Virus record (IMG/VR): IMGVR_UViG_3300011424_000004
Location: 1 to 21,630 of that record
Length of the DNA stretch: 21,630 bases
DNA from: a virus
Strand: one strand, 5' to 3'
Part shown: in pieces, positions 2,056 through 21,031 of the stretch
Position numbering within the stretch: position 1 is the stretch's first letter
Layout: every line of letters begins with the position of its first letter
Position numbers and translations under genes: made by a program
Notes under the pieces: model-generated
What the model was told of the DNA's origin: nothing
What the model saw: only the letters and a program-made list of their open reading frames with translations
Databases searched by the model: none

Positions 2056-3096
2056 TTACTGCCTCACTCCCCCAGCAACTCCACCAACTACTGCACCTAT
2101 TGCAGTTCCCCATCCTGGCATTACTGCACTTCCAGCTGCCGCACCACTTAATGCACCAGAGCCTGCACCACCCCAATTAAATCCAGTTTTCTTTCCCGCA
2201 TTGTACGCACCATACGAATTGGTTAATCCTTGGTTACGTGTATTCAACGTATCATTACTCATTCCCATATAACCAAGATCATTTGTATTTTGAGTACGTA
2301 AATCTTGCATTCCGCTTAGTGCTCCAAGCTTAATCTTATTATACTCACCTAGAGCACCATATCCAGCCGTCCTACTTCGATTAATATCAGACATCATTCC
2401 TAGCTCGGCTTCATTTGCAGAATTCATGCCGCCGAGATAGTTCTTACTTAATTGATCTTGTAATCTAGCCTCAGAATCAGTCATTCCTTGAGCACCCCAC
2501 TGGCGCCCACCACGAACCATTCCTGCTAATTCTGTTTCTACACCTATGTTTGTTTCTGCGGCGGCTCTTGCTGCATCACGAGCCAACATCCTTGATTGAG
2601 AGTTATATCCAGGATTAAATCCTCCCTGTGCAGCATTTCCTTGGGATAAGTTTCTCTTGAGTCCGGCGAAAATGCTAGGAGTAACAGCATTGCCTCTTGA
2701 TCTGTAATTTGCCAGGTCACCTGGCGAGAATCCGCCTGTTTTAGAGAATTCATCATAAACTCCACCACCTCTCATACGAGCCATATCTTCAGGTGATATG
2801 GAGTTTTTAGCCCAGTTAGTTAAATCATCTGTACGTCCATAGATTCTTCCACGCTCCATATCTCCCCAACCGCCATTTGAGGAGAAATCCATAAGAGCAT
2901 CTTCTTGGCGCCTATCATTTAGAATATTATTATATCCTAAAGTAAGATCGCCACGAAGTTGCTCATTTCCTAGATACGCAGTGTCTCCACGTTCTATGGC
3001 ACGGTTACTAATATCTTGGGTTCTATCCTTGGTGTACTGTACATCTCCAGGAATTTGAGCTTTGGGGTCGAATTTATCTGATTTCTTCTTACCCAT
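2056..3096 (-). CDS. Putative internal virion protein with C-terminal glycine zipper
   Basis: A 346-residue protein. The N-terminus is basic (MGKKKSDKFDPKAQIPGD). The middle is rich in Gly, Asn, Met and Arg with helical stretches (ARDAARAAAETNIGVETELAG, about 172-192). The last ~36 residues (309-344) form a Gly/Ala/Val segment with small residues repeating every three to four positions and one central PGWGTAIGA turn. Such glycine-zipper hairpins recur in phage internal proteins thought to insert into the host envelope during genome ejection. The ATG at 3096 overlaps the end of the GNAT gene by 8 nt and has a GGAG site 7 nt upstream. The ejection role is inferred from the C-terminal segment and the gene order; no catalytic motif is seen. 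Confidence 0.7.
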   Translation of the reverse strand: MGKKKSDKFDPKAQIPGDVQYTKDRTQDISNRAIERGDTAYLGNEQLRGDLTLGYNNILNDRRQEDALMDFSSNGGWGDMERGRIYGRTDDLTNWAKNSISPEDMARMRGGGVYDEFSKTGGFSPGDLANYRSRGNAVTPSIFAGLKRNLSQGNAAQGGFNPGYNSQSRMLARDAARAAAETNIGVETELAGMVRGGRQWGAQGMTDSEARLQDQLSKNYLGGMNSANEAELGMMSDINRSRTAGYGALGEYNKIKLGALSGMQDLRTQNTNDLGYMGMSNDTLNTRNQGLTNSYGAYNAGKKTGFNWGGAGSGALSGAAAGSAVMPGWGTAIGAVVGGVAGGVRQ

Positions 3097-3490
3097 TTGT
3101 TAGCTCCAATACAGCAGCTTGCCCAGTTATGGGTTTAAATCCAAAATGACTATACAAGTGCCCCATGAATTTCTCATCACGTGAAAATACATGAAGCTCT
3201 TCTAGACCCTTAGACCGACTTATTTTAATAGCCGCTTCCATTAGTGCTCTAAAGGAGAAAACCTTATCAGCTAGGCTTGCATCTTTATCAAGGATCATTG
3301 TAGCTTCGGCCATTAGTTTCACAGTGCCGGCCGCTATAATACGATCATCACGCTCTACAATTGCTTCCGTAACAATGTTCGATAAAGATGGAAGATCAAA
3401 GTTATTAGCGTGATGTTTAGTATACAAAGCTTGGATCTTCTCTAGATCATTATTACGTATACCATGACGAAATGTTAATTCTCCACTCAT
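3089..3490 (-). CDS. Divergent GNAT-fold acetyltransferase-like protein in the virion gene block
   Basis: A 133-residue protein read from the ATG at 3490-3488. A TTG at 3502 would add four residues, but the ATG has a GGGGTGG ribosome-binding sequence at 3500-3494 and shares a TAATG junction with the stop of the upstream gene. The order of elements looks like the GNAT fold: an N-terminal strand and helix with R.GI..NDLEKIQALY, a central strand pair around RIIAAGTVKL, a long helix (VFSFRALMEAAIKISRSKGL) and a final strand-helix-strand ending HLYSHFGFKPITG. The acetyl-CoA pyrophosphate loop (Q/R-x-x-G-x-G/A) is not recognisable before the long helix, so activity is doubtful. Proteins like this recur near tail and ejection genes of uncultured podoviruses (recalled, not searched). 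It may modify, or act as a structural partner of, a virion protein. Confidence 0.7.
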   Translation of the reverse strand: MSGELTFRHGIRNNDLEKIQALYTKHHANNFDLPSLSNIVTEAIVERDDRIIAAGTVKLMAEATMILDKDASLADKVFSFRALMEAAIKISRSKGLEELHVFSRDEKFMGHLYSHFGFKPITGQAAVLELTNG

Positions 3491-4323
3491 TATCCACCCC
3501 AAGCGCTTGGTTTAACTCCACCAGTTTTAGGAGTATTAGGCACTGGTAATCCATAGGTAGGATTATTTTGTGCGGAAAGGCCATTAAGTCCAAGAGTAGG
3601 ATTATTGTTATACATAGTTGGGCCTTGTTGATACTCTTTAGGAACCGGTTGTCCAGTAGGGCCAGTATTATCTGGGGTAGCTTTACTAGGAACTCCTCCC
3701 CAAGCTCCAGAATTAGTTCTACGATAAGGTGCCGGCGCTGGAGGAGTAGAAACGGATGAAGAATTGCTCACTCCAGTGTTACCAGTAGAGTAATTATAAT
3801 TAGGTAATAAACCTGTATTACCACCAGAATAATCAATAGTTCCAGTCTGTGGAGTACCCGTTCCAGGACCACTTCCTCCCCACGCACCATTAGGTCTAGA
3901 TAATCCACTAGAACCCATTTTATACGGCTGACCAATTGGGCGCCCAAATTGATCGTAACGTCCACGAACTCCACCTTGACCATCAGGATCTATAAATCCG
4001 CCTTGACCATCAGGAATCCAGTGTCCGAATTGCTGATTCTTTTGTGCAGCGTAAGCACCGTACTGTTCACCCTCTCTCTTTGCTCCCTCTTCTCCACCAA
4101 AGAAGTTAAATCGTGCTCTTCCTTCTTCTTTCTTATCTAGAATTCCTAGATCAGCAAGAGTAGCTCCACGACCTAATTCTCTCTTTGTATCTTCTTGCTC
4201 TTGAGCAATAGCACGTTTCCATGCCCTACGTTGTTCAGTAGTACCAGGATCATTATTATCAGCTAAACGAACTGATTCAGAATCAATACCAGTATAGAAA
4301 CTCGGACGATTCTTATTAGCCAT
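3490..4323 (-). CDS. Largely disordered Gly/Pro/Asn-rich protein with repeated AWGG motifs
   Basis: A 277-residue protein. Residues 1-100 are charged and probably helical. Residues 100-277 are low in order and rich in Gly, Pro, Asn, Thr and Tyr. Three copies of a five-residue motif stand out: GAWGG at 146-150, GAWGG at 206-210 and SAWGG as the very last five residues (273-277). Smaller internal echoes are DGQGGFIDPDGQGG (105-118) and NNPTLGL / NNPTYGL. The spacing and the terminal copy suggest short binding peptides docking on a partner such as a portal or tail ring. The ATG is at 4323; the stop overlaps the GNAT start in a TAATG. It lies between a fibre-like protein and the ejection genes, so a virion role is likely, but no family is recognised. 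Confidence 0.65.
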   Translation of the reverse strand: MANKNRPSFYTGIDSESVRLADNNDPGTTEQRRAWKRAIAQEQEDTKRELGRGATLADLGILDKKEEGRARFNFFGGEEGAKREGEQYGAYAAQKNQQFGHWIPDGQGGFIDPDGQGGVRGRYDQFGRPIGQPYKMGSSGLSRPNGAWGGSGPGTGTPQTGTIDYSGGNTGLLPNYNYSTGNTGVSNSSSVSTPPAPAPYRRTNSGAWGGVPSKATPDNTGPTGQPVPKEYQQGPTMYNNNPTLGLNGLSAQNNPTYGLPVPNTPKTGGVKPSAWGG

Positions 4324-4325
4324 AT

Positions 4326-5003
4326 TTAATTTAACCTATAAGCTGCAACTTCAGTATAACGTCCTGCATTACCTTTTCTTATGCCAGTGGTGTTTTCAAA
4401 ATATACTGTATCGAATGCTAGCAAATCTAAAATTTTAATGAATTGTGTCATGACAAACCCTCCTCCGCCTGCGGCAGCGTCAAAATCAGTTCCTACGTTA
4501 ACAGCACCAGCGGCGGCTGAAACATGAAATATACTAACTTGACCTACACCACCAGCATCTGCTGTAACGTAGCAAGTTGCAAGGAATAAGTATTTACCAC
4601 GGATGTTACATTGAATTTCAGTATTTCCGTTAATTAGTGTAAACAAAATGGGATCATTATATAATTCTGTATCCCAAGTATATTTACCTAATCCTGCTAT
4701 ATCAGCGCTCTGATACCAAGCACCGGCGGCTGGAAGACCGAAAATATGGTTATTTACATCCGCGCCACAATAAGGATTCGGTTCTCCGAATTGAGCAATT
4801 TGAAATGGGTCAGGAGCTTGTACGCTTAATTGGTCACTTATACGAAGAATATTAGGAGCGTTTTTACTTCCTGTAGTACGGCTAACTCCTTCTAATAGAC
4901 CCTTAAGATAATCTATATTATCTGCTAATTCCTTAAGAGCAGCATAACTATCTGGATTATCCTTTTGAATCTTCGTTAAAATATCAATAAAACCTTGCTT
5001 CAT
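4326..5003 (-). CDS. Virion protein with N-terminal helix and C1q/jelly-roll-like C-terminus (fibre-like)
   Basis: A 225-residue protein. Residues 1-45 are predicted helical (MKQGFIDILTKIQKDNPDSY then LKELADNIDYLKGLLEGV), a good candidate for trimerisation. Residues about 105-225 alternate beta strands and turns: a GKYLFLATCYVT strand, a VGQVSIFHVS strand, then FVMTQFIKILDLLAFDTVYFENTTG, ending EVAAYRLN. This order resembles the C1q/TNF-like beta-sandwich heads seen at the tips of phage fibres and on capsid decoration proteins. The start overlaps the stop of the upstream tail gene in ATGA, so the two are probably translationally coupled. Receptor binding or capping of the tail is possible; the fold assignment is by eye. 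Confidence 0.6.
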   Translation of the reverse strand: MKQGFIDILTKIQKDNPDSYAALKELADNIDYLKGLLEGVSRTTGSKNAPNILRISDQLSVQAPDPFQIAQFGEPNPYCGADVNNHIFGLPAAGAWYQSADIAGLGKYTWDTELYNDPILFTLINGNTEIQCNIRGKYLFLATCYVTADAGGVGQVSIFHVSAAAGAVNVGTDFDAAAGGGGFVMTQFIKILDLLAFDTVYFENTTGIRKGNAGRYTEVAAYRLN

Positions 5004-9522: not shown

Positions 9523-10797
9523 TTAGTAACCAGTGGGTACAGTTAACGTGTCAATATAAGAACACGCTGCGGGATTGTTAACGAAAAGATTGAAAGAAAT
9601 TACGAGGTAGAAAATCGCAGCTGCAGCAACGCCACCGTCAGCACTACGAAGTTCAAACATCTTTCTTCCATCCTGATCGTAGAATCCAGCAGGATGCATT
9701 TCAGCCCGGCCCCAAACTTTCGTATTAAGAAAGTCAATACGAGTCTTATCCCAAGAATAACTAATGTCAACTGGCGCACCAGCCATTTGCATGTTATCAT
9801 TGAAATAAAGATCAAGACCTTCTTCTTTGCTACCTTTTTGAATGATACTTACAAGTTGTCCTAGCTCCTCATACGCTTGCTTTTGGGCAGGATGCATCAT
9901 TGCAAGAATACCTTGCTTAGTAACATTCTTGATACCAACGCGGTTACCAATTTTGTTAATAGCAAGACGAGCGAAAGGCAAACTTAATGCACCACCAGCA
10001 GCAACACGGTTTGCACGAATTTCAGGAGTCAGCGCACGATCAAAACCAAGCCACGTACCAGTTGATGCGCTATTATGGTGATAAGGAACTCCGTAAATAG
10101 AAACAGGAGGAGTTGCTCCTTGAGCACCAGTAATAACGGCCTTATCCGTATTAACTAATGTGCCCAGAGAAGGAAACGTATGGAAGATCTTATTCTCTAG
10201 ATCCAGAAAGTTAATAGTTACAGGCGCACCAGCCGTACGGCAAACGGTTAATGCAGCGTTATAAACATCCAGGTCCTGGCCGAACCGAACTAAACGAGCA
10301 CCAAATCCATCGCCGGTACAATTCCAAACGTCTCCACCGCCTGTGCCGGTACCAACGGAAACAGTAGTACCAGTAGCTACAACACCAGTTCCATCCGTCA
10401 TACACATGGAATCAATGTTGCGGCGGAATTCATCCATACTATCCGCAAGTAGCTTAGTAACAGTCTTAGCAACAGCTTTTCGGCTATTATCAGTAGCCCA
10501 CTCAGCTTGCTTCGTCCATTCAAGAGCTTCCTTGAAGTTTACAGTATTGATAATAGCCTTATCGAAGAATTGTCCGGCTCCACGACCTAACGATCCTCCG
10601 TTATTATCGTACATACCGAACTTACCACCAGCACGAAGCTCTAGTGGAATACGCATATCTCGTGAAGAAACTTGAGTAACAGGACGCTTCTCAAGTTTTC
10701 CCCAGAGTACATCATCACGATCAAATAACGTAGGAATGTCGCTAGCCACAGCTTCTAGCTGTAATGCTACGACAGACGCATTATTAAGAGCAGGCAT
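9523..10797 (-). CDS. Major capsid (coat) protein, HK97-fold type
   Basis: A 424-residue protein directly after the scaffold gene and 11 nt before a small beta protein, the usual head-gene order. The N-terminal part has a helix and extended loop (MPALNNASVVALQLEAVASD), followed by MRIPLELRAGGKFGMYDNNG and a long helix with EALEWTKQAEWATDNSRKAV. The central part is beta-rich with Gly/Thr turns (GTGVVATGTTVSVGTGTGGG), consistent with an insertion or A-domain loop. The C-terminal part has KTRIDFLNTKVWGRAEMHPA and ends with strands (AAIFYLVISFNLFVNNPAAC). Length and order fit HK97-fold coat proteins of short-tailed phages. The ATG at 10797 has an AAGGT site. There is no N-terminal protease-type delta domain or prohead protease gene next to it, so a separate scaffold is likely used. 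Confidence 0.85.
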   Translation of the reverse strand: MPALNNASVVALQLEAVASDIPTLFDRDDVLWGKLEKRPVTQVSSRDMRIPLELRAGGKFGMYDNNGGSLGRGAGQFFDKAIINTVNFKEALEWTKQAEWATDNSRKAVAKTVTKLLADSMDEFRRNIDSMCMTDGTGVVATGTTVSVGTGTGGGDVWNCTGDGFGARLVRFGQDLDVYNAALTVCRTAGAPVTINFLDLENKIFHTFPSLGTLVNTDKAVITGAQGATPPVSIYGVPYHHNSASTGTWLGFDRALTPEIRANRVAAGGALSLPFARLAINKIGNRVGIKNVTKQGILAMMHPAQKQAYEELGQLVSIIQKGSKEEGLDLYFNDNMQMAGAPVDISYSWDKTRIDFLNTKVWGRAEMHPAGFYDQDGRKMFELRSADGGVAAAAIFYLVISFNLFVNNPAACSYIDTLTVPTGY

Positions 10798-10803
10798 TTA
10801 AGG

Positions 10804-12045
10804 TTACCTTGATTTTCTAAGAGTTATACGTTTTTCTAAGTAATCCTGAGTTGACGTTTTGCTCCAATCTACGTCTTTAGCAGAGATTTTACCCTTTATT
10901 TGGGCAACTCCACTAGGTTTATTAGAACCAACAATCTTCTTAGGATCCTTAGCAGATGGTGGAACAACTTTCTTAGTTTTATACAGTTGCTCTCTGTACC
11001 TGTCTTTCAGTGCAGGTAACCGATTTAAGGCAGCCTGGGAGAAGGCTGAAATAATTTTCTCCCCCATCTCTCTTGATAGACCAATCTTACGAGCTTTAGA
11101 CCAGAAAAGATTCATCTGAGATAGATGATTCGGATCTTTCTCTAACTCAGCGTTAAGATCACGCATTACACGCTCCACAACAGCTTCGCGTTCGAATTCT
11201 GACATCGCTTTCGCAGGATCTAGACCTTTAAGAATCTCTTTAGCTATTAGATCGTTACCATGCTGAATAACTTCAGATCTAAATCCTTGATACTCATTTT
11301 CTTCTTTTGCATTAAGTCTACTTTGTAATTCCTTAACCTTGGGATCTTCTACAACTCTCTCTTCAACAGGAAATTCCGGCTTTCCATGCATGAAGTTAAG
11401 AAGATGCTGTACGGACTTGCGTAAGTTATCATTACCACTACTTTCGGCACTCTTTAGAGCACCTTTAAGAGTCGCATGAATTACAGGATCCGTTACCTTA
11501 CGAAAAATACGTCTATCATGCTCAAAGAGTTTAGGAAGAAAATCTTCAGAGAACTTCTCTAAACTTCCTTTATCAATTGCGTTGATAAAATTCTCTGAAT
11601 TTCCATTTACAACATCTTCCTCTAGGCTATCGAGAATTCCAGCTTTATGGGCAGCTTCCTTAGCGTCTTCAATACCAGGAAAAATGCGTCCGTAATCGCG
11701 GTCTCTATAAATAGCTGCACGTAATTCAGGAAACTGCTTTAGAACACCAGGAAATTTCTCGTTTAGCTTATTCGTATCAAGATACTTACCACCACGAAGA
11801 AGTATATGATCTTCTTCTTTTTCTACTTCCTTTTTCTCTTCTTTTTCCTCTTCGTCCTTTTCTTCTTTAGTTTCTTCCTCTTCCGTATCCGTTTCTTCTG
11901 TTTCCGCTTCGTCAGTTTCTTCAGGTACTTCTTCCTCTTTTACTTCTTCCTCTTTTACTTCTTCATCTTTTTCTTCGATAATCTGCTCTAAACGCTCTTG
12001 AGTAGAAAGATTAGCTGACTGGTCCGACGTCTCCAGATTGTCCAT
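10804..12045 (-). CDS. Scaffold-like protein with a highly acidic N-terminus
   Basis: A 413-residue protein read from the ATG at 12045, which has AGGGGG at 12056-12051 and a 5-nt spacer. A GTG at 12051 would add two residues but overlaps that site. Residues about 22-80 are almost only Glu, Asp, Lys, Val and Thr with repeats such as KEEEVKEEEV. Residues 85-340 are charged helices, including SEFEREAVVERVMRDLNAEL. The C-terminus is basic (KKVVPPSAKDPKKIVG, ending RITLRKSR), which fits coat-binding ends of scaffolds. Its place between portal and coat genes is typical for a scaffold, as in P22. It starts 35 nt inside the portal gene, so expression is probably coupled. A scaffold is inferred from order and composition. 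Confidence 0.75.
   Translation of the reverse strand: MDNLETSDQSANLSTQERLEQIIEEKDEEVKEEEVKEEEVPEETDEAETEETDTEEEETKEEKDEEEKEEKKEVEKEEDHILLRGGKYLDTNKLNEKFPGVLKQFPELRAAIYRDRDYGRIFPGIEDAKEAAHKAGILDSLEEDVVNGNSENFINAIDKGSLEKFSEDFLPKLFEHDRRIFRKVTDPVIHATLKGALKSAESSGNDNLRKSVQHLLNFMHGKPEFPVEERVVEDPKVKELQSRLNAKEENEYQGFRSEVIQHGNDLIAKEILKGLDPAKAMSEFEREAVVERVMRDLNAELEKDPNHLSQMNLFWSKARKIGLSREMGEKIISAFSQAALNRLPALKDRYREQLYKTKKVVPPSAKDPKKIVGSNKPSGVAQIKGKISAKDVDWSKTSTQDYLEKRITLRKSR
11927..11971 (-). repeat. Three tandem 15-bp repeats in the acidic region of the scaffold gene
   Basis: The plus-strand unit acttcttcctctttt occurs at 11927-11941 and 11942-11956, and once more with one change (atc for ctc region) at 11957-11971. 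It encodes repeats of the Lys-Glu-Glu-Glu-Val type. Slippage or unequal exchange of such units would change the length of the acidic arm without breaking the frame. Confidence 0.85.
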
Positions 12046-14392
12046 TATCACCCCCTGCTGCCGCAGCAGCCATTTGTTCCTGCATCATTTGCTGTTGCTG
12101 TAATGTAGTATACTGAGTAAGATAAGCAACAACGTTTCTATAACCTAACGGAAGCGTACGTTTGAGCTCGATACCTACCATAGAATTAAGAAACGCTTTA
12201 ATCGTCTCTATGGCTACTGGAATATTATCCACCGCTGGTTCAATCTGTATGGATGGCATTTCCGGCCCTGGAATTTGTGCCCCAGTCACAGGATCAATAG
12301 TTGGCATTCCAGGTAATGGAGCCGCTTTTGCTAGCTCCATTATATTAATCAACGTCTTATTACGATCCTCATCTCCAGGTATGTAGAGTTCGCTTAATCC
12401 CAAGATACGTGCGATAAGAGACGTATTTTCCGGGTGGAACAACGCAGCATCAATGGATTGATTCTTCATGTTTAACAATGTCATGAGAATACCATTCTTC
12501 TGCTGCCAAGATACTGGAAATTGCTCACTTGCTTCCGGCTCTACAGTTCCAACTTTTCCGAATAATGCTGTTCGTTTAACCCAGACGTTAACGAATCCTG
12601 TTCCTTGGGCTTTAACGATCTTTTCGTCTTCGAGAAGATTGTCGAGATATTCCGCGGTAGCCTTATGGATAACTTTTGCCCAGAGATTGTTAACGATTCT
12701 CCAGTAAAGACCCAGTCGTTGAAGACTTCTCGCAGCAGAATCACGATATTCTCCGAGAGTATTCGAACCACCTTCTTGCTGACCGCCATAAATTGACGGA
12801 TACGCACCTGTTACGAATTGAGCATCCGTATCTAACTGAGACGTCAATGCAGGAACTTCTTGACTTAATGTTGCAGACCTAGTTTCATGGAATGCATCTT
12901 TAAGACTCTGGCCCTGACGTGGAATCGCAGGAACTACTTGACCTACCTTATTCTCACGTTTCGCATATACCTTGAAATCTAAGACGGCCGGATCAGCGAA
13001 ATTTTCAGGAATTCCATAACGAATCGTTTCAATCTTTAATCTATCAAGATCCGCTCGCATTTCTTGAATAGGTACAAGATCAGCACCAATAGCGTCAGAA
13101 TAAACGAAATTATCTACAGGCGAATCACTGATTGTCCAGCATTGATCCAAATCAGCAGCTTCTGCTTCGATGAACTCCTTGTTAATGAACGTAGCTTTAC
13201 AGCCGTTAGGAAATGTTTGCTTAAGAAGTTCATATTCTTCTTTATCTTCTGTAAAGATCCTATAAGCGCTGGGACGTAACCAAGCTCGTTCTCGTGTACA
13301 TAATGCTTCTGACGTATAGTAATTTAAATCAGGACCTAAGCGATATGAACGATAAATATCTCCACCAGCATTTCCGCTAATCTTAGCTTCATGATCTGGG
13401 TACTGTTCACGTAAGTATGAATAATGCTTTTCGTCTGAAAGAATAAGATACTGAATATCCTTCTGAGATTTCACATACGGGTTTACACGAACGTTTAAGC
13501 ATCCGTATACTTCTATGCAAACTCGCTTCTTGACGTTCTGTTGATATTCTTTAATGAAAGGAGCGCTGTATTCTTTAGTATCTACAACTGGTATAATTGG
13601 ACTCGGCGGAGTAAACGTACCGTCGGGATTTTGCATTCCAGTAACGGACGGACATGTAGGATTCGGACACGGACCTGGAGTTTCTATAGGGTCAGTTTCT
13701 GGATTTTCATCATCATACGTTTCTAATACATTTCCACACGCCGGACATGTAAGATCATGTTGATACATCGTTTTCGTACTATAAACAGGTGTCTCTACAA
13801 TTCCGTATTCTTCTTTTCCTTCCGGATAGCTATAAACGAAAACTGTACCTTGCTTGTACATGTAAAACAAAATACGTACAAGAAGAATTTCAGCACTATT
13901 ATGTTTCTGAACAGCTTCGCTCGCGATAGTATATGCTTTAGCAGTTTCTAGATCATCCGGGCTATCTGCATCAGACGGAAAGAATTTAATATTAGGAAGA
14001 GACGCACTAAGTGCTGCTATAATACTTTGCCCATAACCACGATAGATATTTACGTTTTGATCGTCTTGACCAGGAAAGAGTTCATAATCACTCGGGAATT
14101 CTCTCCAGGCGCTAGCAATCTCGGACCAGTAAATATTGAAAATTCCACGCCAGTAGTAATCGTTACGAACCCAAACAAGAGACATGAATTGACGGATTGG
14201 ATCATCTTCTCTTGTGAACGTGTCTACGATGGATTGTAGAGCACTTCCAATTTGTTCGTTTAACTCCTCTTCCATAGCTGCCGCTACATCAGAAGGAAGT
14301 TCCGGTTCTAGAACTTCTTCAGATGGATTATCCATCATTGGATCTTCCATCATTTCTTCATCCATCCCCGGAACTTCCCCCTCACCCATCAT
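12011..14392 (-). CDS. Portal protein with a zinc-ribbon-like insertion
   Basis: A 793-residue protein of the size of P22-class portals. It starts with an acidic, Met-rich stretch (about 1-45), then a helix with IGSALQSIVDTFTREDDPIR and RNDYYWRGIFNIYWSEIASAW, and a GYGQSIIAALSASLPNIKFFP region common in portals. Residues 216-247 carry CPAC (C216, C219) and C242/C247 (CPNPTC), which could bind zinc. The C-terminal part includes IPENFADPAVLDFKVYAKRE, ALTSQLDTDAQFVTGAYPSIYGGQ and a Gln/Met-rich end. Its place after TerL and before scaffold and coat fits a portal, the ring through which DNA enters. The ATG at 14392 has no clear ribosome-binding site; the ATG at 14365 has purine-rich sequence upstream and is a possible alternative start. 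Confidence 0.85.
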   Translation of the reverse strand: MMGEGEVPGMDEEMMEDPMMDNPSEEVLEPELPSDVAAAMEEELNEQIGSALQSIVDTFTREDDPIRQFMSLVWVRNDYYWRGIFNIYWSEIASAWREFPSDYELFPGQDDQNVNIYRGYGQSIIAALSASLPNIKFFPSDADSPDDLETAKAYTIASEAVQKHNSAEILLVRILFYMYKQGTVFVYSYPEGKEEYGIVETPVYSTKTMYQHDLTCPACGNVLETYDDENPETDPIETPGPCPNPTCPSVTGMQNPDGTFTPPSPIIPVVDTKEYSAPFIKEYQQNVKKRVCIEVYGCLNVRVNPYVKSQKDIQYLILSDEKHYSYLREQYPDHEAKISGNAGGDIYRSYRLGPDLNYYTSEALCTRERAWLRPSAYRIFTEDKEEYELLKQTFPNGCKATFINKEFIEAEAADLDQCWTISDSPVDNFVYSDAIGADLVPIQEMRADLDRLKIETIRYGIPENFADPAVLDFKVYAKRENKVGQVVPAIPRQGQSLKDAFHETRSATLSQEVPALTSQLDTDAQFVTGAYPSIYGGQQEGGSNTLGEYRDSAARSLQRLGLYWRIVNNLWAKVIHKATAEYLDNLLEDEKIVKAQGTGFVNVWVKRTALFGKVGTVEPEASEQFPVSWQQKNGILMTLLNMKNQSIDAALFHPENTSLIARILGLSELYIPGDEDRNKTLINIMELAKAAPLPGMPTIDPVTGAQIPGPEMPSIQIEPAVDNIPVAIETIKAFLNSMVGIELKRTLPLGYRNVVAYLTQYTTLQQQQMMQEQMAAAAAGGDNGQSGDVGPVS

Positions 14393-15036: not shown

Positions 15037-15363
15037 TTAACTTACTCCTTCTGCTGCTCTTGCAGCTTTCTTTAAACGCTCTACTCGTGCTAATTCTGCG
15101 TCACGAGACTCTAAAACTCTACGTGTATCAGAAAGTAAACGTACACCACCGAGGGAACGTAACGTATCTCTATCTACAACTAACGATTCAGGACTTACAT
15201 CTCTAAAACGTAATTCTAACGCTGTTAGACGTTCGTCATTCATACGTGCGATACGATTCGTATCTTCCGCAATCGCTTTAGTATCGTTAGCTACCATTAA
15301 TAGTTCAGTGATATCTACGCGAATATCTTTGAACCACTTCAGAACCGCGTGTATTCTTTTCAT
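15037..15363 (-). CDS. Small helical protein overlapping the terminase gene
   Basis: A 108-residue, highly charged, predicted coiled-coil protein starting MKRIHAVLKWFKDIRVDITE, with heptad-like stretches (AIAEDTNRIARMNDERLTAL, RRVLESRDAELARVERLKKA). The start lies inside the terminase gene (59-nt overlap, different frame), and the stop is adjacent to the GTG start of the next gene. No metal, nucleotide or membrane motif is seen. It may be a small packaging or assembly cofactor; the location beside TerL is the only support for this. Confidence 0.55.
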   Translation of the reverse strand: MKRIHAVLKWFKDIRVDITELLMVANDTKAIAEDTNRIARMNDERLTALELRFRDVSPESLVVDRDTLRSLGGVRLLSDTRRVLESRDAELARVERLKKAARAAEGVS

Positions 15364-16969
15364 GAATTTCCATCATCCTATATGCAGAATTTATATCCGT
15401 CTCGAATACCTTTGAGATCTTTTCGATCTCTTTTATCTCTTTAAACTTATCGACTGACTTCTTAAGATAGCGGCTAAACATTTTGCATAAATAACGTAAA
15501 CAATCATACGCATCATCACCAGGGGTACGAGAATCTTCACCTTCGAAATATTTAGGAGCCCACCCTTTTACGTCTTCAGGATGCTTTTCATCATATATAC
15601 AAAGAGGAATAACGCTTATGAGGTTTGGGCACGTGTTAAAGATTTGGAGGATCGGGATATTAGTTTCCGGAGGTTCGGGAGCGAATGAATTGATATAATC
15701 AGTTGCTGCGTCAATTCCCCTTAAACGAAGAATTCTGTCATGAGTTTCTTGAGCATACCCTCCGGGCGGAACATATCGTTTAGGCTTTTCACTCCATCGT
15801 AAGAAATCATGGATTAGCATCTTTCCGCCGATACGATCATTCTCGGCTTGATTAGGACGAAGCTTAGAATATTTTTCGAATTGCTGAGCAATCGTTTCTG
15901 GTTGACCACGATCCTGCCACGCGCTCGGATCGAGATCAATATCTTCTAGAACTTCATGTTGACTTTCTCTTGCAATATCCGAAGCCCAATAAGATACGTT
16001 CTTTTCGTTAGCTACATATTCGTAATAGATAAATAAACGACCATCTGGAGAACATGCACCTTTAAGAGCGATTGTATCAGCTTTGAATCCCCAGTCAATA
16101 GCCATAAATCTAGGCCAGTAGGAAGGAATTTCAAAGGGCTCGATTACATGAATTGCGTTCGCCGGCTCGTCTGGAAATTTAACATCACGAAATTCCTTAA
16201 ATACCTGGCCAGCGAATACGAACCAATCTCCATCAATCTTAGCTTTTTGATCCGCTAACGGAAGCATACGTAAACGATTAATGTATTGAGGATCGTTCTC
16301 AAGAATGTGCGGGTTATCCGTTAACTTCGATGGGATAAAGATTCGTTTAGAGATCGTAGTCCAATCAAAGATTCCAGTAAGAGAATCCTTGACTTTTATC
16401 TTTTCTTCAAGGATCTTATAACCAGAAACACAAGGAGCAACAAAACGATCCCTAACCCAGACATGCCCGATATTTCCGGGGTTAGTTGCCCCCCGCATAA
16501 TAGCAGGAAGATTAGCATTAGAAGAACGACAACGAGAGCTAAGATACCTGTATCGGAATTCACTAAACGCAGTAAGCTCATCCCAGCCTTCGTAATTATA
16601 TTCGTTCGTATCATGATCTCTTGCTTGTAGATCATTCTCTAAATAGGAGAATCGTACGGTAGCTCCGGAGGGAAATGTGTATGTGTGTTTCTGATCGTTG
16701 TATCTTGCTCCGAAATGGGGATAAATCTCCCTAGCTCTAAGTATGAGAGAAGCTTCGAGTTGGGGGTATGTTTCGCGGAAAAGTACACCCTTAAATCTTG
16801 GATGTTTGTAAAATTCTCGTACGATCGGAATGTATAACAAAAGCTCACTTTTACCACCACCTGCGGCTCCACCATAAAGAGCCTCGAAAACAGAATCAGG
16901 AAGAGAAAGAAAATCTTCCTGACGTTTCGTTGGTTTCCACTTAATCTCGGTTGGAACTTCTTCAATCAT
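15305..16969 (-). CDS. terL: Terminase large subunit (TerL): packaging ATPase and nuclease
   Basis: A 554-residue protein with a complete motif set. The ATPase has a Walker A loop GGAAGGGKS at 33-41, a Walker B region YEGWDELT at 126-133 (acidic D130, E131) and the coupling motif ATNPGNIGHVW near 161-171. The RNase H-like nuclease domain has D292 in MAIDWGF, a DLDPSAW motif near 346-351 and DDAYDCLRY (485-493) with a third acidic cluster. TerL docks on the portal, pumps DNA into the procapsid with ATP and cuts the concatemer. The C-terminal tail (about 500-554) is basic and helical and overlaps the next gene by 59 nt. The ATG at 16969 shares a TAATG junction with the stop of the upstream HTH gene. 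The catalytic residues look intact. Confidence 0.97.
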   Translation of the reverse strand: MIEEVPTEIKWKPTKRQEDFLSLPDSVFEALYGGAAGGGKSELLLYIPIVREFYKHPRFKGVLFRETYPQLEASLILRAREIYPHFGARYNDQKHTYTFPSGATVRFSYLENDLQARDHDTNEYNYEGWDELTAFSEFRYRYLSSRCRSSNANLPAIMRGATNPGNIGHVWVRDRFVAPCVSGYKILEEKIKVKDSLTGIFDWTTISKRIFIPSKLTDNPHILENDPQYINRLRMLPLADQKAKIDGDWFVFAGQVFKEFRDVKFPDEPANAIHVIEPFEIPSYWPRFMAIDWGFKADTIALKGACSPDGRLFIYYEYVANEKNVSYWASDIARESQHEVLEDIDLDPSAWQDRGQPETIAQQFEKYSKLRPNQAENDRIGGKMLIHDFLRWSEKPKRYVPPGGYAQETHDRILRLRGIDAATDYINSFAPEPPETNIPILQIFNTCPNLISVIPLCIYDEKHPEDVKGWAPKYFEGEDSRTPGDDAYDCLRYLCKMFSRYLKKSVDKFKEIKEIEKISKVFETDINSAYRMMEIHEKNTRGSEVVQRYSRRYH

Positions 16970-17499
16970 TAACGTTTGATCTCAATTTTTTCGAATTCCA
17001 TCTCGTTTCGTACTGTTGGAGCATAAATGATTACCTGCGCTCCTACGAATCCAACGTCTTTCTTCTCCCTCATTTTCTCAGACACACTAGCAAGATCGTT
17101 TGCAACACGAGAGATTTTATCTTGTGAAAGCTCACTTAGTTTCTCTGCGTCAATTAAACCAAGAGCCATTAGAACCTTACTTGTAGCTTTACTCTCTACA
17201 ACACTTCTTGCTTTTTCGATCTTATCCTTCAATACCGGCGAGGGTTTCCCTTTATATTCGTTACCGTTACTAATCTGGTTTGTACTTACTTTGCTTATAC
17301 CAAATGCTTCCGCCGCATCTTTTTGAGATACCTCGCCGGTATTTACAGAAATCGCAATCAGCTCTTTTACCTCATCTGAAATATTTTCAACGCCGGGTTT
17401 ACGCCCAGCGTTATTGAAATTTCGTGTATGAGATATTTTGAGCTTATTTAGAAAGTTATCTTCGCTATCTAAACGAGCTTGAGCTGATACTTGGTCCAT
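16969..17499 (-). CDS. Putative terminase small subunit (HTH protein, TerS-like)
   Basis: A 176-residue protein just upstream of TerL, sharing a TAATG junction with it. Residues about 56-78 read as a helix-turn-helix (EVSQKDAAEAFGISKVSTNQ), with GISKVS as the turn and recognition helix start. Before it is a basic AGRKPG motif near 31-36. The rest is helical (KDKIEKARSVVESKATSKVL, LSQDKISRVANDLASVSEKM), fitting oligomerisation into a ring. The C-terminus has FVGAQVIIYAPTVRNE and a beta strand, a TerS-like ending I recall from uncultured phages. TerS recognises the packaging site on phage DNA and hands it to TerL. The ATG at 17499 has no strong ribosome-binding site. A transcription regulator is the alternative. 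Confidence 0.75.
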   Translation of the reverse strand: MDQVSAQARLDSEDNFLNKLKISHTRNFNNAGRKPGVENISDEVKELIAISVNTGEVSQKDAAEAFGISKVSTNQISNGNEYKGKPSPVLKDKIEKARSVVESKATSKVLMALGLIDAEKLSELSQDKISRVANDLASVSEKMREKKDVGFVGAQVIIYAPTVRNEMEFEKIEIKR

Positions 17500-17502
17500 A
17501 TG

Positions 17503-17814
17503 TTACTTCTTAGCCTCATTAGCTTTAGCTTCATCAGCTAACTTCTTCTTAGCTAATTCAGCTTCTTGTCGTGCTTTCAGATCGTTTAAAAGATTCGGTT
17601 TAGGAACAGGAGTAACTACAACTTCCGTAGGACGTAACTTAGTAGGATCAGTAGTTACTTCTACATAAACGGTCCTTCCGATACTAATGCTAATAGGAGA
17701 CGGATATTCGAAATATCCACCCGGGAATTCTACATGCACCGTATAGGGATGGCCGGGATATTTCTCACGATCTACAGGACAGGAACAAGAAACTACTTTA
17801 CCAAAGAGTTGCAT
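17503..17814 (-). CDS. Small unknown protein with beta N-terminal and charged helical C-terminal half
   Basis: A 103-residue protein. Residues 1-65 look like a small beta domain (MQLFGKVVSCSCPVDREKYP, HVEFPGGYFEYP, ISISIGRTVYVEVTTDP). Residues 70-103 are a Pro-rich linker followed by a lysine/alanine/glutamate-rich helix (LKARQEAELAKKKLADEAKA). C10 and C12 lie close together but there is no second pair for a metal site. The start ATG has an AAGGA site 8 nt upstream; the stop is 3 nt before the TerS-like start. No family recognised. The charged tail could bind a partner or nucleic acid. Confidence 0.55.
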   Translation of the reverse strand: MQLFGKVVSCSCPVDREKYPGHPYTVHVEFPGGYFEYPSPISISIGRTVYVEVTTDPTKLRPTEVVVTPVPKPNLLNDLKARQEAELAKKKLADEAKANEAKK

Positions 17815-17828
17815 TAATTTTTCCTTAG

Positions 17829-19202
17829 TTATTGATTAACAGCCGGGCAGATTACAGCAGGATAGACACAATTCGTTCCAACTAATGTTCCACCTTGATG
17901 ACAACGAAGGAGTTCTACAGGATTAGGAGTTGGAGTCGGGGACGGAGTAGGAGACGGACTCGGTGTTGGAGAAGGTGTAGGAGTCGGCGTCGGCGTCGGA
18001 GACGGAGAAGGAATAATTCCAGAACAAGAAGGAGGAATAGGAAGATTAGGTTTGATAGCACGGAACTGGTCGTATAAGAATTTATGTTCTTGACAAACGG
18101 ATAGTCCGTCTGGAATATTCCAGTTGATCTTAACAGAACTTTGGGGAAGAACGATGTTGTTTCCGGTAGTTACAGGCTTGCTGTTTAGCATTATACCATG
18201 CAACGTAGAATCGTAACCAATTGCCCAGTTGTTAGTAATAACCGTATTCGGCCCACCACTGAGATCAAAACCAACTTCCGTTTTACCAGGTGCCGTATCT
18301 TCTATGGAATAAAATGCAAGATTATTATCGTACGTATTAAAGAATGCACGATTCGTATCGTCTCGTAATGTCTTTACACCCCGGCGGCCACGATTTCCAT
18401 TGTAGCAGGTAACTGAATTTCTGATAGCCGACGAACGGAAGGAGTTATCAAAACCATCATCAGCATTGTAACAAACGATTAATCCGTTGAATTCAAGATT
18501 CTTACAGAGATTATCACCAGCCGCAGCTTTGTCTACACAATCTTTAGAACTTCCTGCACCGTCAGAGTTTCCACCACCAGCAGAATCTCCAACTCCGGGA
18601 TCGTCACCAGGAACATATGCATCATTCGCAGGATTCTTATCACCGTCAATACGCTTTCCGTTTGAGAGACCTAAAGACCATTCTACTTTATTACCATCTT
18701 GACCTAATCCCCAGCCGCTTCCATGTTGAATATGATCTATCTTGGACCAACGAACAACATTTCCAACTCCGTAAATATGAGCACCTGTTCTCCATGCGTT
18801 AGAAACACGAACTTCTTCGAGAAGATTATTATTTCCGGTTATTTCTACTGCATCCCAGCCGGAGTTGGTAAACGTAATGTTTTTAACGGTATTATTAGAA
18901 CCACGGATACTTAGACCAATTTCTCTGCTATTCGCTTGAACTCCGTACTTCCAACCTACACCTTCTACGATTACATTTCCATTACCTTGTAAATGAATGG
19001 AATCTTTAGCGATAAGAATAGCTTCTTTATAAGTGCCGGCTTCAATCTTAACTATATCCCCGGACTTTGCAACGTTGATTCCACCGTTAATCGTAAACTG
19101 GGTACAACCACTCTTGCATACATTAATCTCTGCCCCGTATGTCATCGAGGCCGAGAGGATTAAACTCAGATTCAGGCTTAGCTTCGTTAAGTTTCTTTTC
19201 AT
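17829..19202 (-). CDS. Probably secreted right-handed beta-helix protein, PL9 pectate-lyase-like
   Basis: A 457-residue protein read from the ATG at 19202 (ATG at 19205 adds one Met). An earlier ATG at 19232 gives a poor, charged N-terminus and no ribosome-binding site, while a purine-rich site (GAGAAG) precedes 19205. The new N-terminus is a probable Sec signal peptide (MKRNLTKLSLNLSLILSASM then TYGA). Residues about 25-350 are Asn/Gly-rich parallel beta-helix coils (GSNNTVKNITFTNSGWDAVE, ITGNNNLLEEVRVSNAW). A YNADDGFD motif at 245-252 has the D-D-x-x-D spacing of the calcium ligands of PL9 pectate lyases; K277 (GVKTL) could be the base. A Pro-Ser-Thr linker (398-428) joins a small Cys-rich tail. 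It may cleave or bind an acidic surface polysaccharide. The family fit is by eye. Confidence 0.75.
   Translation of the reverse strand: MKRNLTKLSLNLSLILSASMTYGAEINVCKSGCTQFTINGGINVAKSGDIVKIEAGTYKEAILIAKDSIHLQGNGNVIVEGVGWKYGVQANSREIGLSIRGSNNTVKNITFTNSGWDAVEITGNNNLLEEVRVSNAWRTGAHIYGVGNVVRWSKIDHIQHGSGWGLGQDGNKVEWSLGLSNGKRIDGDKNPANDAYVPGDDPGVGDSAGGGNSDGAGSSKDCVDKAAAGDNLCKNLEFNGLIVCYNADDGFDNSFRSSAIRNSVTCYNGNRGRRGVKTLRDDTNRAFFNTYDNNLAFYSIEDTAPGKTEVGFDLSGGPNTVITNNWAIGYDSTLHGIMLNSKPVTTGNNIVLPQSSVKINWNIPDGLSVCQEHKFLYDQFRAIKPNLPIPPSCSGIIPSPSPTPTPTPTPSPTPSPSPTPSPTPTPNPVELLRCHQGGTLVGTNCVYPAVICPAVNQ
17919..18011 (-). repeat. Degenerate hexamer repeats coding a Pro-Thr/Ser linker
   Basis: The minus strand encodes about 31 residues of alternating Pro and Ser/Thr (PSPSPTPTPTPTPSPTPSP-type). 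On the plus strand this is a run of GGAGTCGG/GGAGACGG-like units. Such linkers join catalytic and accessory domains of secreted bacterial glycan-active enzymes. The DNA repeat may vary in length by slippage. Confidence 0.9.
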
Positions 19203-19434
19203 CATTTCTTCTCTCTTCTCCATCCCAGTCATCAGGAACAGGGGAACGTTGCAACATTAAAAAAATACCACCGAGAATCTGGATAACCATTACTTTAAAT
19301 AATGACCAGGCACCGTTATCTGTGAAAATATCAAATTGTCCGGGACTCGAGAACCAAACTGTCCCAGTTGTGGCTATTGATGTCATTATTACCCTAGCGA
19401 AACTCTTTAGCCATCTAGAAGTACCCTGGGTCAT
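19123..19434 (-). CDS. Holin-like small membrane protein
   Basis: A 103-residue protein. It has a weak first apolar segment (about 11-29, SFARVIMTSIATTGTVWFSS) and a clear second one (about 43-61, WSLFKVMVIQILGGIFLML), joined by an acidic loop with DIFTDNG. The C-terminus (64-103) is highly charged (DDWDGEERRNDEKKLNEAKP), as in many holins and holin-like proteins. An AAGGAATC site lies just upstream of the ATG at 19434. The coding end overlaps the start of the lyase-like gene by 80 nt, so the two are likely co-translated. A holin would make the inner-membrane lesion that lets a lytic enzyme out; no endolysin is seen nearby, so the role is tentative. It could also act as a membrane anchor or a superinfection-related protein. 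Confidence 0.55.
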   Translation of the reverse strand: MTQGTSRWLKSFARVIMTSIATTGTVWFSSPGQFDIFTDNGAWSLFKVMVIQILGGIFLMLQRSPVPDDWDGEERRNDEKKLNEAKPESEFNPLGLDDIRGRD

Positions 19435-20464: not shown

Positions 20465-21031
20465 TTATGGAGTTTTTACTTGGAAAGATTGCATCGTGAG
20501 ATCACCGGCGGCAACAGGTGTAGTAAGACGAAGGAGCACGCTAATACTATTTGCTAACGTCTGGGCTCCGGCAGTATAGGAACCATTTCCTGCGTTTCCG
20601 TTTCCTTGATATCCCCAATACATAGCTTGCGTAGTAGCAGAACGTCTTATAACCTGACCTTGTACCATCCAAGTAGTATTATTACAACCTGTACTTGTAA
20701 AAGCTGTTCCTACAGTATCTGCTCCGAATACTACTTGAACGGTCTTACTATTAGCGTTCGCAGCGCATGAACCAGAAGCTGTAAATGTAACCGACTGTCC
20801 GTCTACTGCGAGGAAACCGGCAGGAAGAGCACATGTTGCAACTGTTTCAATTACTAATCCTGTGGTAGTAACGGCAGCAGCGGTTGAGCAGATACCAGAA
20901 GAAACAGACGTTCCGTTACTACTACCGCTTCCGCTTCCGCCTGTAGTTATACTAACGCTTGGAGAACCTACTTGAGCATACACGCCAGGAAGAAGAAAGA
21001 GCGTTAATCCGGCGGCGAGGATTTTCTTCAT
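20465..21031 (-). CDS. Secreted jelly-roll-like small protein
   Basis: A 188-residue protein with a clear Sec signal peptide (MKKILAAGLTLFLLPGVYA, cleavage likely after A19). A Gly/Ser-rich linker (about 28-46) follows. The rest is a beta domain with FLAVDGQSVTFTASGSCAAN, then NSKTVQVVFGADTVGTAF and MVQGQVIRRSATTQAMYWGY. This order matches a jelly-roll domain that I recall from phage fibres and capsid-associated proteins ('lpa..l..dGd.v.i.a.G..aaN.ntK.i...fg'). Here it is exported by the Sec route instead of being carried on a fibre. Four cysteines suggest disulfides outside the cytoplasm. The start shares a TAATG junction with the stop of the first operon gene. Confidence 0.65.
   Translation of the reverse strand: MKKILAAGLTLFLLPGVYAQVGSPSVSITTGGSGSGSSNGTSVSSGICSTAAAVTTTGLVIETVATCALPAGFLAVDGQSVTFTASGSCAANANSKTVQVVFGADTVGTAFTSTGCNNTTWMVQGQVIRRSATTQAMYWGYQGNGNAGNGSYTAGAQTLANSISVLLRLTTPVAAGDLTMQSFQVKTP

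Follow-up and report, generated by a model that had tools for sequence, protein, structure and literature searches.

Gene layout of the window and features of the PL9-like ORF

The window, that is, the whole stretch of DNA analysed, was a linear virus record of 21,630 bases and represented a fragment of a tailed phage, with its main genes all on the minus strand (Table 1). The ORF encoding the PL9-like protein was open and located exactly as the sequence-only reading had described it, and the numbering of D248, D249, D252 and K277 was correct. The beta-helix coils, the DDxxD motif, the Pro-Thr linker and the Cys-rich tail were all present as well. The ORF had been placed beside the terminase gene; it did belong to the late operon, but two small genes (17503-17814 and 16969-17499) lay between it and the large terminase gene. 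For the product of 19123-19434, no family match was found among the Pfam and PHROG profiles. In the region of tail and internal proteins, a small protein (3089-3502) was GNAT-like by eye and had relatives in 13 related loci.

Table 1. Features of the window and of the PL9-like protein
Feature	Position	Strand	Basis
Capsid gene	9523-10797	-	Assigned from gene order and sequence
Scaffold gene	10804-12051	-	Assigned from gene order and sequence
Portal gene	12011-14392	-	PHROGs match, weak
Large terminase gene	15305-16969	-	Named by PHROGs
Fibre-like gene without signal peptide	4326-5003		By eye
PL9-like beta-helix protein P0001, 457 aa	17829-19202	-	Open frame; hhalign to PL9 profile
Putative Sec signal peptide, residues 1-23	19134-19202	-	Lax rule passed, strict rule not
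Beta-helix core, residues 24-395	18018-19133	-	AlphaFold model with PL9 rows, Foldseek, Beta_helix match
GGGNSDG, residues 209-215; D214, first predicted calcium ligand	18558-18578	-	Same in Endoriftia homologue
NADDGFD, residues 246-252; D248, D249, D252	18447-18467	-	Aligned to PL9 N[AS]DDGFD
RRGVK, residues 273-277; K277, candidate catalytic base	18372-18386	-	Positional alignment near PL9 GNGFK
C-terminal segment NWNIPDGLSVCQEHKFLYDQFR, conserved in subfamily	18060-18125	-	Endoriftia counterpart NLDLPEGISIRERWAYMHNQFRS
Pro/Thr/Ser linker, residues about 397-429	17916-18014	-	Read from sequence
Short Cys-containing tail; C434, C445, C452	17832-17915	-	Sequence reading and Cys count
Small possible membrane protein	19123-19434	-	One TM-like segment by hydropathy; holin-like by anatomy only
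SP2, second exported protein, 188 aa, jelly-roll-like	20465-21031	-	Textbook signal peptide
SP1, third exported protein, 124 aa	21031-21405	-	Textbook signal peptide

The frame of the ORF was open upstream to 19232, with ATG codons at 19232, 19205 and 19202, and the signal-like N-terminus arose from the starts at 19205 or 19202. The start lay inside the 3' part of the upstream ORF 19123-19434, with an overlap of 80 bases. The predicted signal peptide was MKRNLTKLSLNLSLILSASMTYG, followed by AE. It met a lax rule but failed the strict "textbook" rule, and looked like a moderate signal peptide. Furthermore, the protein contained 11 Cys in 457 aa, compared with 0.68% Cys in the other proteins of the window when the two other exported proteins were left out (p 7e-4), and this enrichment fitted an extracytoplasmic protein with disulfide bonds. 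Based on the N-terminus, the high Cys content and the two nearby genes with signal peptides, export of the PL9-like protein is plausible. The codon usage of the gene was that of its phage neighbours, indicating that it was not a recent contaminant.

Remote relationship to PL9 lyases and the predicted site

The sequence-only reading had proposed a search with PL9 and Beta_helix profiles. The Beta_helix profile matched at 18681-18917 with 24.3 bits, whereas the PL9 profile PF22842 gave no match in the window even at E <= 10. The sequence searches of Pfam, PHROGs, NCBIfam and PDB returned solely coil-level or low-complexity matches, which left the protein unnamed; TIGR04247 (NosD), whose cut-off is 300 bits, scored 24, over the N-terminal coils only. 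A PL9 profile was built from real PL9 proteins of four loci (L033, L057, L058 and L091). With hhalign, the phage protein alone aligned to this profile over the DDxxD coil with an E value of 5.4e-6, and together with its Endoriftia relative it reached an E value of 1.3e-11 and a probability of 97.4 over 185 columns, compared with an E value of 0.24 for an unrelated NosD beta-helix used as control. These profile comparisons support the view that the phage protein is a remote relative of PL9. NADDGFD on its own was not accepted as evidence, as 36 viral contigs had it and just one of them was a real PL9 by eye.

Single-sequence scans of the viral and genome collections gave no relatives, nor did tblastn over the phage records, and a plasmid search gave two weak partial matches only. 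When bacterial genomes were scanned with a PL9-guided alignment, one full-length relative was found, on contig AASF01001941 of Candidatus Endoriftia persephone (L056). It aligned to residues 37-397 with about 25-28% overall identity, and the fragment GGGNSDGxGxSKxCxD...NADDGFD was 52-53% identical to the phage protein. The two proteins shared GGGNSDGxGxSKxCxD, a Cys pair, NADDGFD and the C-terminal NxxLPxGxS...QFR; NADDGFD was not independent in this match, as the search pattern demanded the NADDGF core, but the other features were. The Endoriftia gene differed from the phage gene in lying on a bacterial contig next to a murI-like gene, in carrying its low-complexity linker at the N-terminal side and in having a PL9-like C-terminal end, DIGAFE. 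It was also frameshifted in the draft assembly, with the frame broken at the position of K277. The Endoriftia sequence, used as query in phages and plasmids, found nothing, and no further full-length member was present in 369 Gammaproteobacteria, 399 Pseudomonadota, 142 relatives and 148 Bacteroidota. The N-terminal matches obtained in Gammaproteobacteria and Bacteroidota were generic beta-helices over the first coils only and were rejected; two of them (L062 and L065) were read, and both were without the DDxxD motif.

The known PL9 lyases (Pel9A, 1ru4; the BT rhamnogalacturonan lyase, 5olq/5olr) have a right-handed parallel beta-helix of about ten coils, a DDxxD Asp trio on two coils and a Lys on the next coil; a beta-helix with such an arrangement is predicted here. 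In PpPel9a, Asp202, Asp226 and Asp230 bind calcium and Lys271 is the base; Ca-1 is located at coils 5 and 6, and the lysine follows on coil 7 (PMC6627557). The DDxxD spacing in the phage protein matched Asp226/Asp230 of PpPel9a (PMC6627557), confirming the calcium-ligand spacing noted earlier. D214, which aligned with the Asp of the PL9 "DGF" and had been missed in the sequence-only reading, would be the third ligand, and the alignment to PL9 predicted D214, D248 and D252 on two adjacent coils. Other distances differed: 34 residues separated the first and second Asp, compared with 24 in PpPel9a, and 29 residues separated the second Asp and the Lys, compared with 45. Moreover, the phage protein differed from PL9 lyases in a longer insertion after the first Asp with a Cys pair (C222 and C233), in the Pro-Thr linker and Cys tail, and in being encoded by a phage. 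The PL9 hallmark around the lysine, GNGFK(L/I)GG, was changed to RRGVKTL. The PL9-like assignment was supported as a remote relation by hhalign, with a predicted Asp trio and the candidate base K277 on the next coil, but PF22842 did not match and the lysine context was changed.

With the Endoriftia fragments only, the structure prediction suggested by the sequence-only reading gave a poor, shallow AlphaFold model (pLDDT 48.1, pTM 0.53), from which no usable match to a known fold was obtained. With four PL9 rows in the alignment, a right-handed beta-helix was obtained (pLDDT 68.5, pTM 0.75); the good model appeared solely with these rows and was hence partly circular. Foldseek with this model matched the pectin methylesterase 8tne, PL31 6kfn, and PL9 1ru4 and 5olr at TMq 0.43-0.52, the highest value being to 5olr, and the nearest folds were thus PL9, PL31 and CE8 enzymes. 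The strands bearing or adjoining D214, D248-D252 and K277 (core 193-195, 228-230 and 253-255) lay on successive coils, so the predicted coil order was like that of PL9 (PMC6627557). The local pLDDT at RRGVK was only about 48-62, and the model with PL9 rows establishes a predicted fold class rather than a site. The conserved C-terminal segment was a helix in both AlphaFold models.

The altered lysine signature RRGVK would also fit an exported beta-helix in which the PL9 scaffold persisted after the loss of lyase activity, the protein serving as a surface adhesin, a receptor mask or a decoy. The relatives of the phage export fibre-like and jelly-roll-like proteins, which are binders and not cutters, in agreement with such a role. 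However, all three Asp ligands were retained, also in the Endoriftia homologue at its low overall identity, and a non-catalytic protein is considered unlikely.

Putative exported proteins of the window and of capsid-related phages

Two further proteins of the window had textbook signal peptides. The mature part of SP2 resembled the Microcystis phage protein UUJ74534.1, itself without a signal peptide, and SP1 had a homologue, including the signal peptide, in a related phage (L101 183-551, E 7e-10). Relatives of the capsid protein were confirmed at least 429 times in IMG/VR (best 63%) and were absent from 50,697 phage records. The PL9-like gene was absent from 88/88 loci with a related capsid protein, and also from 18 and 40 whole records.

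In the capsid-related loci, 51 proteins of at least 100 aa had textbook signal peptides, and 47 of them were encoded upstream of the capsid gene. Expressed per ORF, signal peptides occurred in 47/568 upstream and 4/635 downstream (p 7e-12), a value that overstates independence because the loci are related; 45 of the signal-peptide proteins were distinct. This exported-protein region had been missed in the sequence-only reading. The skew concerned position alone, as an overall excess over other viral contigs was not supported (51/1203 vs 6/221, p 0.35). Among these proteins, L149 15007-17664 had fibre-type repeats, L154 7692-8657 had PHROG tail-fibre matches, L018 3002-4600 had tail-fibre matches in phages, and L017 6174-7574 resembled, by eye, a beta-helix behind a signal peptide.

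Signal-peptide proteins of capsid-related phages were seen across L018 3002-7344 and L017 5381-7574, stretches that take in the L018 and L017 proteins given above, and at L016 5274-7139, L104 3883-5244 and L150 4712-8137. Two proteins of phage contigs combined a signal peptide with a C-terminal PEP-CTERM sorting motif, at L105 2773-3423 (Pfam 30.7 bits) and L128 1147-1758 (by eye). L020 4968-9830, on a viral contig that does not belong to the capsid-related loci, encoded a protein of 1613 aa in which beta-helix-like coils were accompanied by a signal peptide. Phages of Porphyromonas gingivalis likewise have genes for Sec-exported signal-peptide proteins; the proteins of interest there have no assigned function, and the passages considered do not connect them with PL9 (PMC10367356).

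Several signal-peptide proteins of the relatives were thus tail-fibre-like, and beta-helix tailspikes are common in phages and were present among the fold matches. The PL9-like protein might be a virion tail spike or fibre, either because its hydrophobic N-terminus is no working signal peptide or because it is exported and then joins virions after lysis. Tailspike depolymerases such as those of HK620 and the Klebsiella phage lyases are, like the proposed lyase, beta-helices that cut surface polysaccharide; they differ as virion-borne trimers without signal peptides, and no sequence similarity to them was found. The signal-like N-terminus ran directly into the beta-helix, unlike the virion-binding N-terminus without signal peptide of a tailspike. 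In addition, neither a virion-anchor N-terminus nor a C-terminal trimerisation or chaperone domain was recognised, the Pro-Thr linker and Cys tail being present instead, and the window had a separate fibre-like gene. A spike or fibre is rather improbable. A virus-encoded PL9 beta-helix was found at L033 862-2457, on an 89.6-kb IMG/VR contig, with a 1ru4 match of 1.5e-32; unlike the window protein, it started at the catalytic domain, had no signal peptide and carried an extra C-terminal domain.

Proposed function and its meaning

The explanation we favour, with about even confidence, is that the ORF encodes an exported, divergent PL9-like polysaccharide lyase whose gene is part of a cargo region devoted to exported proteins. 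Late in infection, the lyase would leave the host cell via Sec. Calcium on D214, D248 and D252 would neutralise the uronic-acid carboxylate of the substrate, and the C5 proton would be taken by K277, one coil further on, the anti beta-elimination of PL9 lyases being expected in the phage protein too. The Pro-Thr linker would hold a small disulfide tail, possibly surface-binding. The lyase gene would belong to the part of the genome, upstream of the capsid genes, in which the phage group places genes for exported proteins.

An exported lyase might also serve as an auxiliary metabolic enzyme that supplies the infected host with nutrients from plant or algal pectin and plays no part in spread. 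Pectins are substrates of PL9 enzymes (PMC6627557), and an active carbohydrate-degrading enzyme of a soil virus, a chitosanase, is on record (PMC9485262). On the other hand, the gene lay in the late structural operon, adjoining small membrane proteins, and no carbohydrate-metabolism gene other than the PL9-like ORF was recognised in the window, which makes a purely metabolic role quite improbable.

For the favoured lyase, it is reasonable to infer an action on matrix, capsule or slime. The location in the exported-protein region upstream of the capsid points to loosening of the uronic-acid-rich matrix round the host or its neighbours, and thereby to progeny spread, as its likely role. RbmB of Vibrio cholerae is a secreted beta-helix lyase that acts on the producer's own matrix. 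It may serve as a functional model, although it is a cellular gene and its fold similarity was weak (TMq 0.22-0.31). More tentatively, this uncultivated phage group may reserve the stretch between its small terminase and scaffold genes for cargo genes whose products leave the cell through Sec, among them tail-fibre-like shafts, jelly-roll proteins and beta-helices. Infected cells would then release proteins for adhesion and for cutting matrix, the PL9-like lyase being one of them; such proteins would work away from the virion or be added to it only once it has been released.

A PL9-like subfamily with the signature GGGNSDG...NADDGFD is now defined, with one other member found, and its substrate can be tested directly. 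The PL9-like gene by itself is of moderate interest, and the pattern of exported proteins across related phages is of greater interest. Phage depolymerases are normally regarded as virion parts. If the phage group does export beta-helix and fibre-like proteins through the host Sec system during infection, infected cells would reshape their surroundings before lysis, a community effect missed by virion-centred work.
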